Origin: a virus
Length of the DNA stretch: 34,698 bases
Strand: one strand, 5' to 3'
IMG/VR virus record: IMGVR_UViG_3300032086_001543
Coordinates: 1-34,698 of that record
Numbering within the stretch: position 1 is the stretch's first letter; each line of letters opens with the position of its first letter. The notes beneath the pieces are model-generated. The model worked only from the letters and a program-made list of their open reading frames with translations, did not search any database and had not been told where the DNA came from. Below, one piece after another: positions 10,924-34,698 of this stretch. A program made the translations under genes and the position numbers.

Positions 10924-11119
10924 AAGTTCTGTTAGTTTACTTTATTATAATTTGACAGTAGATGATTTTATGGCCGGAGCTTCGCTCAGGCAAATACAAT
11001 CCAGTTTAAAATTCTATGAAGAACTAGAATTGTATGATGAATGTCACGGAATATTTATGGCAATTAAATATTATAAAATAATAATGAGAACCTTTATAAA
11101 TAAAAGATATGAAGATTAA
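10850..11119 (+). CDS. Small hypothetical protein overlapping the exonuclease gene
   Basis: The product is 89 residues if ATG 10850 is used, overlapping the exonuclease by 74 bases; TTG 10892 or ATG 10970 are alternatives. The core TVDDFMAGASLRQIQSSLKFYEELELYDECHGIF looks helical (first part TVDDFMAGASLRQIQSSLKF). The LRQIQ-FYEE pattern recurs in small phage proteins I cannot assign. It overlaps the DnaA-like gene by 11 bases, in the dense early operon. Confidence 0.6.
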   Translation: MILSIQERENLEEQLRIISDTLDFKSSVSLLYYNLTVDDFMAGASLRQIQSSLKFYEELELYDECHGIFMAIKYYKIIMRTFINKRYED

Positions 11120-11663
11120 AGACGTAAGAAGTTTTGTAGAAGATAAGACTCAATTAGATATAGGAAAGAAATTGAGAAGAAGAGATTATGTATATGCAAG
11201 AGCTATATTTTTTTATTTATCTAAAAAATATGCCAGAGCAACTTATCACGCTATGGCAAAAGAAGTTAACTGTAATCACGCAAGTGTAATTTATTCTATA
11301 AGAAATACTGTTCCAGTAATATTTAGAGAAGAACCTCAACTAAAAAGAATATGCGATCACTTTGTTACTTTATTTACAGAAGAGATAGTATCAAATGTTA
11401 AAACTAAATCAGATATAATATCTGAAAACATAGATCTTAAAATAAGATTATCTAGATACGAAGATGCTGAAACTAAAGGTGGTAAGCTTAAGGTTGTTCA
11501 AAATACAATAGATTCTAAATTCGCTAAACTAATAGAGCAAACTCCTGAAGACAAATTAGATGATTTGTATGTTTCAATGAAAGCTAAAGTCAGAATGTTA
11601 AATGCACAATGGAAAGATAAAATAACTGTATATTCAAGTTATGAAACAGTTGATTCATATTGA
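11109..11663 (+). CDS. Protein with DnaA domain IV-like DNA-binding region
   Basis: The product is 184 residues. Residues about 22-70 resemble DnaA domain IV: RRRDYVYARAIFFYLSKKYA is the basic helix, and EVNCNHASVIYSIRN matches the signature turn with a conserved H-x-S-V core. The remainder is helical, without an AAA+ module. It may bind DnaA-box-like sites for origin recognition or regulation. TTAAACGCA, the core of the stem-loop family, is a partial match to a DnaA box. The stop overlaps the next ATG. Confidence 0.65.
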   Translation: MKIKDVRSFVEDKTQLDIGKKLRRRDYVYARAIFFYLSKKYARATYHAMAKEVNCNHASVIYSIRNTVPVIFREEPQLKRICDHFVTLFTEEIVSNVKTKSDIISENIDLKIRLSRYEDAETKGGKLKVVQNTIDSKFAKLIEQTPEDKLDDLYVSMKAKVRMLNAQWKDKITVYSSYETVDSY

Positions 11664-12288: not shown

Positions 12289-13480
12289 TGAAAAGTACCA
12301 AGCATTTGGAAATGATTCTAGATACTTTATTGTGACTGGCGGTAGAGGATCCGGTAAGTCATTTGCCGCTAACGTATTCTTATTACTGTTAACTTATGAA
12401 AGAGGTCATAAGATTTTGTTTACTAGATATACAATGGTATCCGCAGCTTCGTCTATTATTCCAGAATTTATAGAGAAGCTAGAAATTATGGGTGTGGTCG
12501 AAGACTTTAGAATAATTAAAGACGAGATCACAAATATTAAAACAGGATCTAGTATTTTGTTTAAAGGAATCAGAACAGCTTCAGGGAATCAAACAGCAGC
12601 TTTAAAATCATTAAACGGTATTACTACATTTGTTTTAGATGAAGCAGAAGAATTAACTAGCGAAGATGACTTTGATAAAATAGATCAGTCTGTTAGGGTA
12701 AAGACTAAACAGAATAGATGTGTTCTTATATTAAATCCTACTACAAAAGAACATTGGATCTATAATAGGTTTTATGAGAATAGAAATATACCGGATGGAT
12801 ATAATGGAATAAAAAATAGTATTACTTATATACATACGACTTATAGAGATAATGTAGATAATTTATCTATATCATTCTTAAATCAAATACAAGACATAAG
12901 AAGAAGAAGACCAGAGAAATATACACACCAGATACTCGGAGGCTGGTTAGAAAAACAGGAAGGTGTTATATTTCGTAATTGGAGAATAGGAGAGTTTAAT
13001 GAGAACTATGACATATATTATGGGCAAGACTTTGGATTCTCTATAGATCCAACAGTCTTGACTAAATTAAGTATAGATAGAAGAGGCAGAAGAATATATT
13101 GTAAAGTAATGTATTGTAAGCCTGGACTTTCTACAACACAGATAGCAGACTTTAATATAAGATATGCAGGCCCACATTTAATCATATGTGATTCAGCTGA
13201 ACCTAGACTTATAAATGAAGTTAAACTTAAAGGAGTTAACATTAGACCTACAATAAAAAGAAAAGGATCTATCTTATCTGGTATTGCTCTTCTTCAAGAC
13301 TTTGATTTAATTATAGATCCTGATTCAACAGAATTAGTTAAAGAATTAAATAATTATGTTTGGGCCACCAAAGGCCAAACAAAACCAGTTGATCGTTGGA
13401 ATCATTGCATAGACTCAATACGCTACGCAGCTCAATACGCTTTAGAAGGATTCTCTAAAGGCACTTACTCAATTCGTTAA
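12269..13480 (+). CDS. terL: Terminase large subunit
   Basis: The product is 403 residues. Walker A is GGRGSGKS (24-31), Walker B FVLDEAEEL (D124, E125), and NPTTKEHWIYNRFY is the coupling segment. The C-terminal RNase H-like nuclease shows D254 in GQDFGF, D308 in IICDSAEP and D382 in HCIDSIRYA. This is the PBSX/Terminase_3-type packaging motor and nuclease. Its stop TAA (13478-13480) is embedded in the first of two tandem TTAAACGCAGTAGGGTT stem-loops, with no U-rich terminator. Confidence 0.93.
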   Translation: MKTPKLNEKYQAFGNDSRYFIVTGGRGSGKSFAANVFLLLLTYERGHKILFTRYTMVSAASSIIPEFIEKLEIMGVVEDFRIIKDEITNIKTGSSILFKGIRTASGNQTAALKSLNGITTFVLDEAEELTSEDDFDKIDQSVRVKTKQNRCVLILNPTTKEHWIYNRFYENRNIPDGYNGIKNSITYIHTTYRDNVDNLSISFLNQIQDIRRRRPEKYTHQILGGWLEKQEGVIFRNWRIGEFNENYDIYYGQDFGFSIDPTVLTKLSIDRRGRRIYCKVMYCKPGLSTTQIADFNIRYAGPHLIICDSAEPRLINEVKLKGVNIRPTIKRKGSILSGIALLQDFDLIIDPDSTELVKELNNYVWATKGQTKPVDRWNHCIDSIRYAAQYALEGFSKGTYSIR

Positions 13481-13516
13481 ACGCAGTAGGGTTAGACTCT
13501 TAAACGCAGTAGGGTT
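13477..13516 (+). repeat. AAACGC stem-loop, copies 2 and 3, 23-bp spacing
   Basis: TTAAACGCAGTAGGGTT occurs at 13477-13493 and 13500-13516. The first covers the terL stop. Each can fold with YYC before TT pairing GGG after the loop, leaving TA bulged. They are identical over 17 bases. Confidence 0.8.
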
Positions 13517-13522
13517 AAGATC

Positions 13523-13663
13523 TTAGTTAATTTCGTTACCTCTGGGATCAATAACCTTATAGTTGTTCTCTTTTAAAAGTTTTACTGCACCATCTATTTT
13601 CTTTTGAGTTTTTCTAAAGTGATCAAAGATTTGATTTTCAAATGCATTATTTTTTATGTACAT
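13523..13663 (-). CDS. Small minus-strand protein between repeat pairs
   Basis: The product is 46 residues from the ATG at 13663: a polar helical start (FENQIFDHFRKTQKKIDGAV) and a compact end KVIDPRGNEIN. Codon use and amino-acid balance look real and no stop interrupts it. It is one of only two genes on this strand. It lies exactly between two pairs of TTAAACGCA-type repeats, each with 23-bp spacing (13477-13516, 13682-13721), which suggests an inserted small unit. No family is recognised. Confidence 0.55.
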   Translation of the reverse strand: MYIKNNAFENQIFDHFRKTQKKIDGAVKLLKENNYKVIDPRGNEIN

Positions 13664-13681
13664 ATCTATTAATTTTAATTA

Positions 13682-13721
13682 TTAAACATAGTAGGGTTTA
13701 GTTCTTAAACGCAGTAGGCTC
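13682..13721 (+). repeat. AAACGC stem-loop, copies 4 and 5, 23-bp spacing
   Basis: TTAAACATAGTAGGGTT at 13682 (two changes, GC to AT, in the loop) and TTAAACGCAGTAGGCTC at 13705. They have the same orientation and 23-bp step as the pair at 13477. These are the most diverged copies and do not sit on a recognised stop codon. Confidence 0.7.
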
Positions 13722-13783: not shown

Positions 13784-13842
13784 TTAAGAAAATTTTAACA
13801 TATTCTTAACATTAATTTAACATTAGACAGAAAATTAGTTTG
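13784..13842 (+). promoter_or_regulatory. Phased TTAACA array, accessory operon 1
   Basis: TTAAGA at 13784 and TTAACA at 13795, 13806 and 13817, each step exactly 11 bp. TTAGTTTG (13835-13842), one mismatch from TAnnTTTG, follows 18 bp after the start of the last unit. The ATG at 13875 is downstream. Face-of-helix spacing suggests cooperative protein binding at a promoter. Confidence 0.65.
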
Positions 13843-13874
13843 TAATATTGTATCGAACACTAAAAAATAATTAT

Positions 13875-14138
13875 ATGAAAAAAGTTGAAAAGTTTATTGA
13901 AGAGACTTCTAACGGGAAGATCTTCAGCGCAACATTCGTAAAAAAGAATGGTAGGATCAGAACTATTCATTGTCGCAGAGGCGTCAAGAAAGGTCTGACC
14001 GGTAAAGGTATGGCCTATGATCCAGGAGAGAGAGGTCTACTGGTTGTTTATGATTTATCTAAAAAAAATTATCGTATGATAAATTTAGCTAAATTAATAG
14101 AAGCTAAAGTTAATGGTTTAATTTATAAATTTATTTAG
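13875..14138 (+). CDS. Sm-like / WYL_2-type small beta-barrel protein
   Basis: The product is 87 residues from ATG 13875 (an upstream TTG at 13848 would start inside the promoter). SNGKIFSATFVKKNGRIRTI, CRRGVKKGLTGKG, GLLVVYDLSKKNYRMINLAK are consecutive strands matching the short WYL_2/DUF2693 (Sm-like SH3 barrel) proteins common in phages and plasmids. An RNA- or DNA-binding or regulatory role is likely from fold, not shown. It is the first gene of accessory operon 1. Confidence 0.7.
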   Translation: MKKVEKFIEETSNGKIFSATFVKKNGRIRTIHCRRGVKKGLTGKGMAYDPGERGLLVVYDLSKKNYRMINLAKLIEAKVNGLIYKFI

Positions 14139-14139
14139 T

Positions 14140-14622
14140 ATGAATGAGCCTTATAAAAAAGTGATAGAGTTCTACAAGAACTCATCACCTAAACAACATC
14201 AATACTTTTTAAATTTGATAAGCGACCAATTGACATTTTTTAATTATGAAACTAGCGAGCAGTTTGATATAGATGATGAATGCCAAATTGATTTTAATGG
14301 CATATTTCATCAAATAAATTTAAAAGGTAGTTACGACAGCACTTTTGCAAAAGATCCCAGCATTGAAGCTCTAATTGATTCTGAAAGGAAATCTATTGGT
14401 TATGCTGAGTCAGATGCTAATAGTGACGAAGATATTCTAGCTAGATTGATTTCTAAATATTGTGAATGGGATGGAGCTTTTATTTATAGATTAGCAAGAG
14501 AATGTTTTACAGAATGTAATCATCATACTTTTAACAAAGCTTTTGAGAAGCTTTGGGAAAAGGAAATATTAAGAACAGATCACATAAATAAAAAAGATAA
14601 AGATGAAAACAATAATAAATAA
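14140..14622 (+). CDS. Hypothetical acidic accessory protein
   Basis: The product is 160 residues, beginning one base after the previous stop. Helical N-terminus (EPYKKVIEFYKNSSPKQHQY), an acidic strand-rich centre (DIDDECQIDFNGIF), and an aromatic helical half (YCEWDGAFIYRLARECF). The four cysteines are scattered, without a zinc pattern. No family is recognised. Confidence 0.7.
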   Translation: MNEPYKKVIEFYKNSSPKQHQYFLNLISDQLTFFNYETSEQFDIDDECQIDFNGIFHQINLKGSYDSTFAKDPSIEALIDSERKSIGYAESDANSDEDILARLISKYCEWDGAFIYRLARECFTECNHHTFNKAFEKLWEKEILRTDHINKKDKDENNNK

Positions 14623-14899
14623 AATTAAACAATACAATCGCAAGTCAATGGGAAATGTTAAGAACACTAGAGATGAAATTGATAACGATATAAAAATTGA
14701 AGTTGTTTCATCTTGGACGATTCAAGGCGATGCTAAAGAACATAACGAGACTTTAGCGAGCTTAGAAATATACGGCTGGACTATTACATCAGAAGAGTTA
14801 GAAGTACTTGTAGAGGCGCTTAAATGCGTTTATTCAAATCATCCTGATGGAGAGATTAAAATGCAAGTTACACATAATCACGAATATTTAAATTGTTAA
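14603..14899 (+). CDS. Small hypothetical accessory protein
   Basis: The product is 98 residues from ATG 14603, overlapping the previous gene by 20 bases; ATG 14648 (MGNVKN) is an alternative start without overlap. DIKIEVVSSWTIQGDAKEH and YGWTITSEELEVLVEALKCV suggest an alpha-beta fold. No family is recognised. Confidence 0.65.
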   Translation: MKTIINKIKQYNRKSMGNVKNTRDEIDNDIKIEVVSSWTIQGDAKEHNETLASLEIYGWTITSEELEVLVEALKCVYSNHPDGEIKMQVTHNHEYLNC

Positions 14900-14900
14900 T

Positions 14901-15110
14901 ATGAAAAATAATAAAGTTATTAAAGTAGTCAGGCCAATGAGAGCCTGGTTTAAAAGCTTCTGGACTTTAATGAATGACATATTCAATCCAAAAGCATCAA
15001 CACATAGATGGACTAGATATCCAATGTATGCTAAAGATCAAAAAGAAAAAGATCTTATAATAGCTGATAAAGTAGAAATATTAAATCAAAATATAAAAAT
15101 TAAATTATGA
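14901..15110 (+). CDS. Small basic hypothetical protein
   Basis: The product is 69 residues, basic and aromatic at the start (VIKVVRPMRAWFKSFWTLMN), with no clear membrane segment. It ends four bases into the next gene (ATGA junction). No family is recognised; coding is supported by tight spacing. Confidence 0.6.
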   Translation: MKNNKVIKVVRPMRAWFKSFWTLMNDIFNPKASTHRWTRYPMYAKDQKEKDLIIADKVEILNQNIKIKL

Positions 15111-15301
15111 CTTACACAGAAGATATTCAGAGAATTGAATCTCAACACCTGAGATCAATTCTCAATAAACAAGTAGATACAATAGACGAATTAAGAATTG
15201 AAGTTCTAACCTTACATTCAAGAATAGAAGTCTTGTTAGCAAAAATAGAAGTCCTGGAACAAAAAATTGAAGAGGATATAATTAATAATAAATTAAATTA
15301 A
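15107..15301 (+). CDS. Small coiled-coil protein
   Basis: The product is 64 residues and almost entirely one helix with I/L heptads (LRIEVLTLHSRIEVLLAKIE). It likely dimerises or oligomerises. It overlaps the previous gene by ATGA; the next gene begins two bases after its stop. Confidence 0.65.
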   Translation: MTYTEDIQRIESQHLRSILNKQVDTIDELRIEVLTLHSRIEVLLAKIEVLEQKIEEDIINNKLN

Positions 15302-15302
15302 A

Positions 15303-15545
15303 ATGAGCAAAGATAATCACACATACGTTCACAGCATTGATGACATTCACGGATCCGACGGAGAAGTTTACATAAGTTATGGAAAAGATAAAGAGCTAAC
15401 AATAGAATCTGAAAGCCTTTGGTTTTTTCTACCAGATTTAATTAAGATAGCAATACAGCAAAAGAAAGTTTCTAATGAGATCCAGAACTTGCACATTGAA
15501 TCGGCTGTTAAATTATTAAAGGATACACTCGATAATAATTCTTAA
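15303..15545 (+). CDS. Small hypothetical protein, last gene of accessory operon 1
   Basis: The product is 80 residues: HTYVHSIDDIHGSDGEVYIS, then a strand (ELTIESESLWFF) and a helical end with several leucines. No family is recognised. Its TAA stop (15543-15545) lies inside the first of four TTAAACGCA stem-loops. Confidence 0.65.
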   Translation: MSKDNHTYVHSIDDIHGSDGEVYISYGKDKELTIESESLWFFLPDLIKIAIQQKKVSNEIQNLHIESAVKLLKDTLDNNS

Positions 15546-15634
15546 ACGCAATAGGGTTGCCGACTTCATTAAACGCAATGGGGTTGGCAATTTCTTAAAC
15601 GCAATGGGGTTTCTTTCTTAAACGCAGTGGGTTT
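15542..15634 (+). repeat. AAACGC stem-loop, copies 6 to 9
   Basis: Copies start at 15542, 15569, 15595 and 15618 (TTAAACGCAATAGGGTT, AATGGGGTT twice, AGTGGGTTT forms). The one at 15569 forms the best stem: GCCGACTTCATT with AATGGGGTTGGC, 12 pairs around AAACGC including three G-U. No T-run follows, so it is not a classical terminator. The remaining gap to 15838 holds the TTAAAA and TTAACA arrays and no gene that I can support. Confidence 0.8.
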
Positions 15635-15653
15635 GCCCCTCCAAAATCAAATG

Positions 15654-15686
15654 TTAAAATTCTGTTAAAATTTTGGTAGATTAAAA
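15654..15686 (+). promoter_or_regulatory. TTAAAA repeats, weak phased set
   Basis: TTAAAA at 15654 and 15665 (11-bp step) and again at 15681. It resembles the TTAACA arrays but with A in place of C and imperfect phasing of the third unit. It lies about 150 bp upstream of the GP88-like gene and may be an additional operator or plain AT-rich sequence. Confidence 0.35.
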
Positions 15687-15769
15687 TATTTTTTGTATTG
15701 GCAAATTTTCGGGCTTGATTCATTTGCGCAATTTAGAAACGTTTTAAATAAATTAGATGCCGTCAAATG

Positions 15770-15815
15770 TTAACAATTTGTTAACATTAGTAAACTGATT
15801 TTAAATATATATTTG
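15770..15815 (+). promoter_or_regulatory. Phased TTAACA pair and TATATTTG box, accessory operon 2
   Basis: TTAACA at 15770 and 15781 (11-bp step), then an exact -7 box TATATTTG at 15808-15815, 27 bp after the second unit, that is one 11-bp step more than the 16 bp seen at 16856/16872. The ATG is at 15839. Confidence 0.65.
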
Positions 15816-15838
15816 TGATTCACTTTAAAAAAATAAAT

Positions 15839-16636
15839 ATGTCTAATTTTCAAAACACTTTAAAAGAAACGTTGAAACACGTTGACGGGTTTAAGATCCC
15901 GAAAAAATTATTAAGTCAGGGAATAAGCAACGCTAAAACAAAAAAGAATAAGTTAAAAACTTTTATTCTTTATTTGGCCCCTTATAATCAAAATAGTAAA
16001 GGTGTCAACATTTGCCCGCACGCCTCAAAAGGCTGCGCGGCCGCTTGTCTCTTTTCAGCTGGCCGGGGTAAATTCTCAAACGTTGTAAAGTCCAGGATAA
16101 ACAAAACTGAGTATTTTCTGAGGGACAAAAAAAATTTCTTGCATCAATTGCATAAGGAAATTATTCAAGAATATTACAAAGCAAAAAACGGAAATTATAA
16201 AATTGCGATCAGGTTAAACGGGACGTCAGACCTTGATTTTTTACATTTATTACGGGTTAACTTTGGCTTTTGTTCTGAAAGTTATTCAGACAATTTGGTT
16301 TTTTATGATTATACAAAAGACATTAAAAGAGCGTTAAAATATAAAGATTTTAAAGAATATAATTATAAATTAACCTTTTCACATTCTGAATGTAATTCTC
16401 TTAGTTGTGATCTAGCAATTAAAAATAAAATTAACGTTGCCGTGGTTTTTGAAAAGATGCCTATAAAATATCTTGACACGTGGGTAGTTGATGGGGACCA
16501 GTCAGACGATATAATGTTGGATCACTCGGGCGTTATTTTGGGCCTCAAAGCTAAAGGGGACGCGCGAACAGATCAAAGCGGGTTTGTAATTAATAAAGAA
16601 AATAAAAATCTTGAATTCGATGTCTTACCCTTTTAA
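15839..16636 (+). CDS. GP88-like phage protein with a Cys cluster
   Basis: The product is 265 residues from ATG 15839; the longer frame from GTG 15815 would start inside the -7 box. It matches the pattern of the phage gene-88 protein family: YLAPYNQNSKG, ICPHASKGCAAACLFSAGRG (C59, C66, C70), SRINKTEYFL, IRLNGTSDLD (about 124-133), and C185/C190 in SECNSLSCD. The C-x6-C-x3-C cluster suggests a metal or iron-sulfur site; the family's activity is not known to me. Codon use is more GC-rich than in the structural genes. It overlaps the zinc-ribbon gene at 16620 by 17 bases. Confidence 0.8.
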   Translation: MSNFQNTLKETLKHVDGFKIPKKLLSQGISNAKTKKNKLKTFILYLAPYNQNSKGVNICPHASKGCAAACLFSAGRGKFSNVVKSRINKTEYFLRDKKNFLHQLHKEIIQEYYKAKNGNYKIAIRLNGTSDLDFLHLLRVNFGFCSESYSDNLVFYDYTKDIKRALKYKDFKEYNYKLTFSHSECNSLSCDLAIKNKINVAVVFEKMPIKYLDTWVVDGDQSDDIMLDHSGVILGLKAKGDARTDQSGFVINKENKNLEFDVLPF

Positions 16637-16754
16637 TTATTATGAACCACCGGCTCAGGATCCGCCGAACTTTTGCGCATTCTGTGAAAAAGAAATATCA
16701 GAAAATAAAACTTATTGTTCTAGTTCTTGCCTGGTTAATGATTCAGAACTTTAA
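16620..16754 (+). CDS. Tiny zinc-ribbon protein, partner of the GP88-like gene
   Basis: The product is 44 residues: MSYPFNYYEPPAQDPPNF, then CAFCEKEISENKTYCSSSCL. Two cysteine pairs (CxxC and CxxxC, 11 residues apart) indicate one bound zinc. The gene overlaps the end of the GP88-like gene in another frame and its TAA (16752-16754) lies in the next TTAAACGCA repeat. Cysteine spacing and the coupled start support a real gene; function is unknown. Confidence 0.7.
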   Translation: MSYPFNYYEPPAQDPPNFCAFCEKEISENKTYCSSSCLVNDSEL

Positions 16755-16798
16755 ACGCAATAGGCCTCATTAAACGCAATGGGGCCTCCTGCTTTTTT
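16751..16798 (+). terminator. AAACGC stem-loops, copies 10 and 11, forming a terminator
   Basis: TTAAACGCAATAGGCCT at 16751 covers the zinc-ribbon stop, and TTAAACGCAATGGGGCC starts at 16770 (19-bp step). Copy 11 folds with AGGCCTCATT and AATGGGGCCT, 10 pairs around AAACGC, followed by CCTGC and seven T (16792-16798), a standard intrinsic terminator. This is the only copy with a T-run. Confidence 0.75.
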
Positions 16799-16822
16799 TC
16801 CAGTTTCAGCGCTCTCAAAATT

Positions 16823-16879
16823 TTAACAAAACTTTAACATTTCTTTAACATTTATTTAACATTTTGCGCCTTATATTAG
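16823..16879 (+). promoter_or_regulatory. Phased TTAACA array, accessory operon 3
   Basis: TTAACA at 16823, 16834, 16845 and 16856, all exactly 11 bp apart; each unit is TTTAACAWWWN-like. TATATTAG (16872-16879), one change from TAnnTTTG, starts 16 bp after the last unit. The ATG at 16921 is downstream. This is the cleanest of the three arrays. Confidence 0.7.
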
Positions 16880-33268: not shown

Positions 33269-34698
33269 ATGGGAGCTACTTTAACAGGAACTAGAATATC
33301 TGATACTTATGATTCGCTTTTAAAAGCAACTGACAATGGAATCATAACATCTAGTGCGAAACAGATTACAGATGGTGTTGGTACAAATACACCTTTATAT
33401 ATATCAACAAGTAGAATAGGTATAGGTGTTTCACCTACTACCACATTTCAGGTTGCAGGTAATTCTAAAATAGGAGGAGATTTAACTGTAACTGGTAATT
33501 TACTTGTTGAAGGAACTACTACTACTGTGGATACTGACACATTAAGTGTCAAGGATCCACTAATTATTGTAGGTAATGATAACAATACTTCTGATCTTGT
33601 TGATCTAGGATTTTATGGTTTATATGATACTTCAGGATCCCAGGATTTATATGCTGGACTTTATAGAAGTGCTTCAGATACTAAATTTCATTTATTCAAA
33701 GATCTACAAGAAGAACCTACTACAACAGTAAACACAGGAGGAACAGGATATGCTGTAGCTACTTTAGTTTCTAATTTAGAAGGTAACGTAACAGGAGGTA
33801 CTATTTCAGGTACTACAGGAACATTTACTGGGAATATTAATGCTGCAAAAGGAATTTTTGAAGCAGCTAATAATCAAATATCAATTGTAGATAGCGATGA
33901 TAACCAAGATTTTAGAGTTCAAGTAAATGGTGGTGCTTTTAGTGTTAAGGACCATACAAACTCACAAACTATATTTAAAATATTTGCAAACTCTGGTACT
34001 GATGCATTGGTTATAAATAGTAGTGGTGCAACTTTTGCTGGTAATGTAGATATTGATGGTACATTAGATGTAGATGATGTAATAAGTGTTGAAGGTTCTG
34101 GATTTGGTAGAATAGAAGTAGGTGGAGCTTCAGGTGGTTATATAGATTTAAAAGCACCTAATTCAGACGACTATGATTTTAGATTAATCACTAGTACTGG
34201 TGGTGCTGAATTATATTCTATAGATACATTAAAGTTTTATACAGGTTCAGGTACAGATTTAGCAATTACAATAGATACTTCACAAGATGTTACATTTGAA
34301 GGTAATATAATACTTTCAGGAACAGTAGATGGGAGAGATGTTTCTACTGATGGAAATAAATTAGATGGTATTGAAGCAGGAGCTGATGTTACCGATACTG
34401 CAAATGTAAGAAGTGCAGGTGCATTAATGGATGATGAGCTTACTAATATTTCAGCAGTAAAAGCTATAAACCAACAACTAACAACAACTAGCAATGTACA
34501 ATTTACAAGTGTAACTTCTGACCTTACAGGTGATGTTACTGGGAATGCAGATACAGCAACAAAAATAGCTAGTATTACAAACAGTAATATTGTTCAATTA
34601 ACAGATATACAAACATTAACTAATAAAACTATAGATGCAGACAATAATACTATTAGTGATTTAGAAGTTGATAATTTAAAAGCAGGAGTTTTAGATAC
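33269..34698 (+). CDS. Tail fibre, N-terminal part (continues at base 1)
   Basis: The frame from ATG 33269 is open to the end of the window and in phase with base 1 after removing the 134-bp overlap. The N-terminus begins MGATLTGTRISDTYDSLLKA, then STSRIGIGVSP, GDLTVTGNLLVEGTTTTVDT, and VKDPLIIVGN, a common start of marine phage fibres. Further strand-rich repeats (TFAGNVDIDGTLDVDDVISV, KLDGIEAGADVTD, LTGDVTGNADTATKIAS) lead into the C-terminal part described at 1-2994. The full protein is about 1,429 residues. Confidence 0.88.
   Translation, partial: MGATLTGTRISDTYDSLLKATDNGIITSSAKQITDGVGTNTPLYISTSRIGIGVSPTTTFQVAGNSKIGGDLTVTGNLLVEGTTTTVDTDTLSVKDPLIIVGNDNNTSDLVDLGFYGLYDTSGSQDLYAGLYRSASDTKFHLFKDLQEEPTTTVNTGGTGYAVATLVSNLEGNVTGGTISGTTGTFTGNINAAKGIFEAANNQISIVDSDDNQDFRVQVNGGAFSVKDHTNSQTIFKIFANSGTDALVINSSGATFAGNVDIDGTLDVDDVISVEGSGFGRIEVGGASGGYIDLKAPNSDDYDFRLITSTGGAELYSIDTLKFYTGSGTDLAITIDTSQDVTFEGNIILSGTVDGRDVSTDGNKLDGIEAGADVTDTANVRSAGALMDDELTNISAVKAINQQLTTTSNVQFTSVTSDLTGDVTGNADTATKIASITNSNIVQLTDIQTLTNKTIDADNNTISDLEVDNLKAGVLD
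34565..34698. repeat. Right copy of the 134-bp terminal direct repeat
   Basis: Matches 1-134 except for T at 34608 (C at 44), which changes ACA (Thr) to ATA (Ile) in the fibre. A sequence polymorphism between overlapping molecules or a base-call error explains this more easily than a biological difference between two termini. Confidence 0.85.

Follow-up and report, generated by a model that had tools for sequence, protein, structure and literature searches.

The virus record IMGVR_UViG_3300032086_001543, analyzed over its whole length of 34,698 bases (the window), contains three intergenic regions with exact copies of TTAACA at 11-bp steps, each upstream of one or more small genes (Table 1). 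The WYL_2 protein encoded at the start of operon 1 is an SH3-like barrel with no recognized helix-turn-helix (HTH). The GP88 protein of operon 2 has relatives encoded at 44 viral loci; it contains a cysteine-rich stretch (CPHASKGCAAAC), and relatives occur in pelagiphages and mycobacteriophages. Elsewhere, the record encodes a sigma-factor-like phage protein (8819-9394; weak matches to Sigma70_r2 and an HTH, and a PHROG sigma factor) that, judging from these matches, could alter or switch promoter choice, and a DnaA-C-like HTH protein (11109-11663; domain match). We found no Trans_reg_C domain (the OmpR-type effector domain) in the 34,698 bases of the record, which is possibly not complete. 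The terminase is closest to those of Nonlabens phages P12024S/L (50% identity). Based on this match and on the type of promoter, we tentatively assigned the phage to a flavobacterial host. The genomes of P12024S/L do not contain any exact TTAACA pair.

Table 1. Repeat units, putative -7 elements and genes in the three regions; positions are those of the window.
Feature	Position	Strand	Remarks
Array 1, degenerate first unit TTAAGA	13784..13789	+	
Array 1, TTAACA x3, 11-bp steps	13795..13822 (starts 13795, 13806, 13817)	+	Units kept in L577, L579, L580 and L582, flanks diverged
Putative -7 element TAATATTG, array 1	13843..13850	+	20 nt after last unit; TANTATTG conserved in all aligned relatives
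Operon 1 first gene, WYL_2 (PF10902) small protein, 87 aa	13875..14138	+	
Operon 1 remainder, five small ORFs	14140..15545	+	No confident family match
Degenerate extra pair beside array 2	15652..15670		TTAAAA-N5-TTAAAA on +, exact TTAACA-N5-TTAACA on -
Array 2, TTAACA x2, 11 bp apart	15770..15786 (starts 15770, 15781)	+	
Putative -7 element TATATTTG, array 2	15808..15815	+	21 nt after last unit
Operon 2, GP88-family gene (PF17338), 265 aa	15839..16636	+	E 1e-33
Array 3, TTAACA x4, 11-bp steps	16823..16861 (starts 16823, 16834, 16845, 16856)	+	
Putative -7 element TATATTAG, array 3	16872..16879	+	21 nt after unit 3, 10 nt after unit 4
Operon 3 first ORF, 91 aa	16921..17196	+	No family; no match in cultured phages
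Operon 3 second listed ORF, 96 aa	17293..17583	+	No confident family match

We found that the arrays are far more regular than expected by chance. There were six exact pairs in the three intergenic regions, compared to a mean of 0.0006 in dinucleotide shuffles of the same regions, and three exact triples, compared to none in 5000 shuffles. These comparisons exclude chance arrays. The unit starts and 11-bp steps given for all three places in the initial annotation are correct. Every distance of less than 41 bp between two copies of TTAACA on the + strand was 11, 22 or 33 bp. The hexamer as such was not over-represented (31 copies on the + strand of the whole window versus about 26 expected). 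The spacers between units differ inside each array, which sets the arrays apart from a simple tandem repeat.

Another repeat, TTAAACGCARTRGG with its variants, is present in these three intergenic regions as ten tandem copies with a step of 19-27 bp (13477-13719, 15542-15632 and 16751-16784), in every case upstream of the array. A repeat of this type is also found upstream of array 1 in a distant relative (L579). The degenerate pair beside array 2 is retained in several relatives, yet no leftward gene follows it.

All three arrays share the arrangement TTAACA-N5-TTAACA-N20/21-TAnnTTTG, and they were the only sites in the whole window that matched it with up to two mismatches. For array 1, the -7 box had initially been placed at TTAGTTTG (13835), and this is probably wrong. 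In an alignment of array 1 from relatives, TTAGTTTG was lost in the more distant ones, whereas TAATATTG, TACTATTG or TAGTATTG was kept 20 nt past the last unit (window positions 13843-13850). Because TAATATTG is conserved across relatives, it is the likely -7 element of array 1. The distances of 18, 27 and 16 bp originally given between the arrays and -7-like boxes were arithmetically correct. The accompanying proposal that the 27-bp case is the 16-bp case with one decayed unit was not supported, as N20/21 is the common spacing and unit 4 of array 3 is an exceptional addition. Units 3 and 4 of array 3 have an exact N10 spacing to the -7 element, and the 21 nt from unit 3 to TATATTAG is found in every close relative; unit 4 is TTAATA in three of them (L575, L576 and L577).

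Close relatives (82-94% protein identity) have the same set of arrays wherever their contigs reach far enough. Relatives with ~62% protein identity keep some of them: L579 has arrays at all three places and L580 and L582 have array 1. In these three relatives the surroundings of array 1 have diverged, the 11-bp step is intact, and TAATATTG is exactly 20 nt past the last unit.

The same element is present in unrelated viral contigs, where N20/21 is the main peak. The counts that follow are samples among the matches listed, not totals. When the spacer between the second repeat and the -7 element was left free (0-30 nt), 60 of the 132 matches listed were at N20/21. After grouping into independent clusters, this spacing accounted for 20 of 76 clusters among the matches listed (uniform expectation 2/31, p about 5e-8); looser clustering rules gave 31 clusters with N20/21 elements, and we used the stricter figure. 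There were minor peaks at 9/10 and 30, i.e., one helical turn apart. Conversely, with N20/21 fixed and the spacing between units left free, the mode was 11 bp (32 of ~91 viral clusters among the matches listed). Just 2 of the 58 viral N20/21 elements listed were inside an ORF, and for 49 an ORF started within 250 bp. The genes behind such promoters mostly encode small proteins without an assigned function. We also counted four-unit TTAACA arrays in viral contigs and found at least 58 with a step of 11 bp, at least 18 with 10 bp and at least 46 with 12 bp. A step of 12 bp is in codon register and the raw count does not single out 11 bp, so we relied on the test anchored at the -7 element.

Flavobacteriaceae chromosomes also carry the element. 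In 249 genomes, the spacing was exactly N21 at 63 of the 105 listed sites, counts that are dominated by orthologous families and thus represent few independent events. Genes behind the N21 sites include those for a conserved lipoprotein of ~474 aa, a membrane protein of ~185 aa encoded next to porX (PorX-like), and a small lipoprotein resembling a CAP-domain protein as read from its sequence (no Pfam match). Accepting two mismatches brought in a CarboxypepD_reg-type protein and an S9-family oligopeptidase; under this rule, a scan of eight genomes gave 57 N21 matches compared to 10 for the reversed pattern. The genes behind these sites are not known as members of one regulon. A single TTAACA at -27 was not enriched across 127 ordinary TAnnTTTG contexts, indicating that the hexamer is not a general promoter feature.

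Host genomes are not dense with triple arrays; an exact TTAACA triple was present in just 11 of the 249 Flavobacteriaceae genomes, and in about six of these it belongs to a single conserved site of another kind, which has an outer palindrome. At that site (L242, L249, L250, L253, L254 and L258), three TTAACA units at 11 bp lie inside an outer inverted repeat of the type TGCTATTTTAAC...GTTAAAATAGCACA, in three of the six loci upstream of a gene for a ~200-aa secreted-looking protein. Several Flavobacteriaceae (L627-L630) have a TTAACA pair 24 nt from TAnnTTTG, before a gene for a conserved ~152-159-aa protein (DUF4442-like).

Based on the repeats and their position, we infer that the arrays are probably operators, borrowed by the phage, to which a host response regulator of the OmpR/PhoB family (a winged-helix protein) binds. 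Sites for this family are direct repeats of a hexamer or heptamer at 11 bp (PMC3264566, PMC4832192). The phage arrays likewise consist of head-to-tail candidate half-sites of 6-7 bp with an 11-bp period, and their distance from the core promoter is constant, seen as the N20/21 peak in both viruses and host chromosomes. The site for KdpE at kdpFABC of Escherichia coli, TTTATA-N5-TTTACA (PMC3264566), is similar in having AT-rich 6-bp direct repeats that begin with TT and are separated by a 5-bp gap. It differs from the phage arrays in that the recognition site described has two half-sites only, is gammaproteobacterial, and belongs with another regulator and another promoter consensus. The Pho box of PhoB/PhoP-type regulators is also built from direct repeats with a period of 11 nt, is bound head to tail, and can have more than two units (PMC4415409, PMC4832192). 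For PhoP, binding is tighter to arrays of three and four motifs (PMC4832192).

In the arrangement that we propose, a single TTAACA would serve as a half-site, and a tandem dimer would bind two of these at a distance of 11 bp. With the half-sites beginning 38 and 27 bp before the -7 element (37 and 26 bp in array 1), the dimer would be centered at about -41/-42 from the expected transcription start, beside the host sigma factor. This is the usual position of a class-II activator, and the regulator would presumably activate rather than repress. If the -7 element is taken to begin at -12 (PMC6847099), then an N21 pair spans -50 to -34, with its center at -42, and an N10 pair is centered at -31. 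Cooperative binding would be extended by the additional units, which lie upstream in arrays 1 and 3 and at -16 in array 3. By recruiting RNA polymerase to the phage operons, the host response regulator would make three small accessory operons dependent on the signaling state of the host. Cooperative binding of a regulator to one face of the helix, at an activator-type promoter, had been suggested from the sequence of the window, and the recurrence of the 11-bp step and of the fixed distance to TAnnTTTG in unrelated phages and host chromosomes lends support to this idea.

The arrays could be true Pho boxes, through which host PhoB would activate the phage operons under phosphate starvation, as happens in cyanophages. 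A Pho-box reading falls within control by an OmpR/PhoB-family regulator, and the likelihoods of the two overlap; we consider this narrower reading rather unlikely. The hexamer of the arrays is that of the pst and porin promoters of Flavobacteriaceae (putative Pho-regulon promoters), which have [A/T]TAAC[A/T]-N5-TTAACA-N10-TT[A/C]TTTG or close variants, and all five matches to the strict N10 pattern in 149 genomes were before a porin gene. The boxes in these promoters are one turn closer to the -7 element than the N21 boxes, in the classical Pho-box position. Units 3 and 4 of array 3 have exactly this geometry, as do the boxes at the GP88 homologue in L536, and control of cyanophage genes by host PhoB is on record (PMC10976474). 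However, the gap of ~10 nt between the second repeat and the -7 element is found in the window for units 3 and 4 of array 3 only. Arrays 1 and 2, with gaps of 20 and 21 nt, are one helical turn further away, and several relatives do not have the unit at -16 in array 3. In addition, the host genes behind N21 sites are not evident phosphate genes, and many of the genomes that contain them gave no confident match to pstC. A Pho-box identity for all three arrays was weakened once N20/21 emerged as the common geometry.

It is improbable that the arrays are bound by a regulator that the phage encodes, e.g., the sigma-like protein, the DnaA-C-like HTH protein, or the WYL_2 protein, whose gene lies behind array 1 in every relative examined. 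The record does have matches to a sigma factor and to an HTH, but a sigma factor leaves two to four tandem units unexplained, the WYL_2 protein is a small barrel without a recognized HTH, and the same element is found with the same spacing before conserved chromosomal genes. The initial annotation had left the choice between a host and a phage regulator open. A host regulator is favored because the element also stands before conserved chromosomal genes and no OmpR-type effector domain was found in the phage record. We are equally doubtful that the arrays are phased, AT-rich elements similar to UP elements that are read by RNA polymerase with no specific regulator. In Flavobacterium johnsoniae promoters, AT-rich motifs separated by one turn have their centers at -18 and -28, and there is a weak motif at -33 (PMC6847099). 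The arrays are at positions unlike -18 and -28, the exact hexamer, including its C, is both conserved and phased, and ordinary -7 contexts show no enrichment of a single TTAACA. There is almost no likelihood that the arrays are an artifact of chance or of simple repeats in an AT-rich genome. The unremarkable number of TTAACA copies across the window and the 12-bp-step arrays in viral contigs could be taken in its favor, but shuffling produced no such arrays, the spacers vary, and the arrays are conserved in relatives.

None of the response-regulator genes examined was preceded by a good TTAACA pair, so autoregulation did not provide a name for the regulator, and the literature that we searched on RprY states no binding motif. 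Titles and abstracts of the Flavobacterium literature contained nothing bearing on TTAACA, and we found no description of a TTAACA-N5-TTAACA-N21-TAnnTTTG operator in the open-access literature that the searches yielded. The binding sites of regulators in the Bacteroidota are poorly known, and phage promoters there even less so. A precise, searchable operator that is found in both host chromosomes and phages provides a way into a regulon that is apparently undescribed. It is possible, and we suggest it tentatively, that TTAACA-N5-TTAACA-N21-TAnnTTTG defines a conserved Flavobacteriaceae regulon with several envelope-type genes, and that unrelated Bacteroidota phages widely exploit it by copying the operator, often with extra units, for their accessory operons. 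If so, this would be a second setting, after the cyanophages, in which phages are plugged into host two-component signaling. In cyanophages S-PM2d and P-SSM2, host-type boxes couple phage genes to the host PhoBR system (PMC10976474). The cyanobacterial boxes are PyTTAAPyPyT/A, whereas the arrays described here are found with a Bacteroidota-type -7 element, TAnnTTTG, and precede genes without an assigned function.

One other feature of the record concerns its ends. Open ORFs at 1-150 and 34550-34698 encode a nearly identical peptide, IASITNSNIVQLTD[TI]QTLTNKTIDADNNTISDLEVDNLKAGVLD, suggesting either internal repeats of a tail fiber or overlapping ends of the record.
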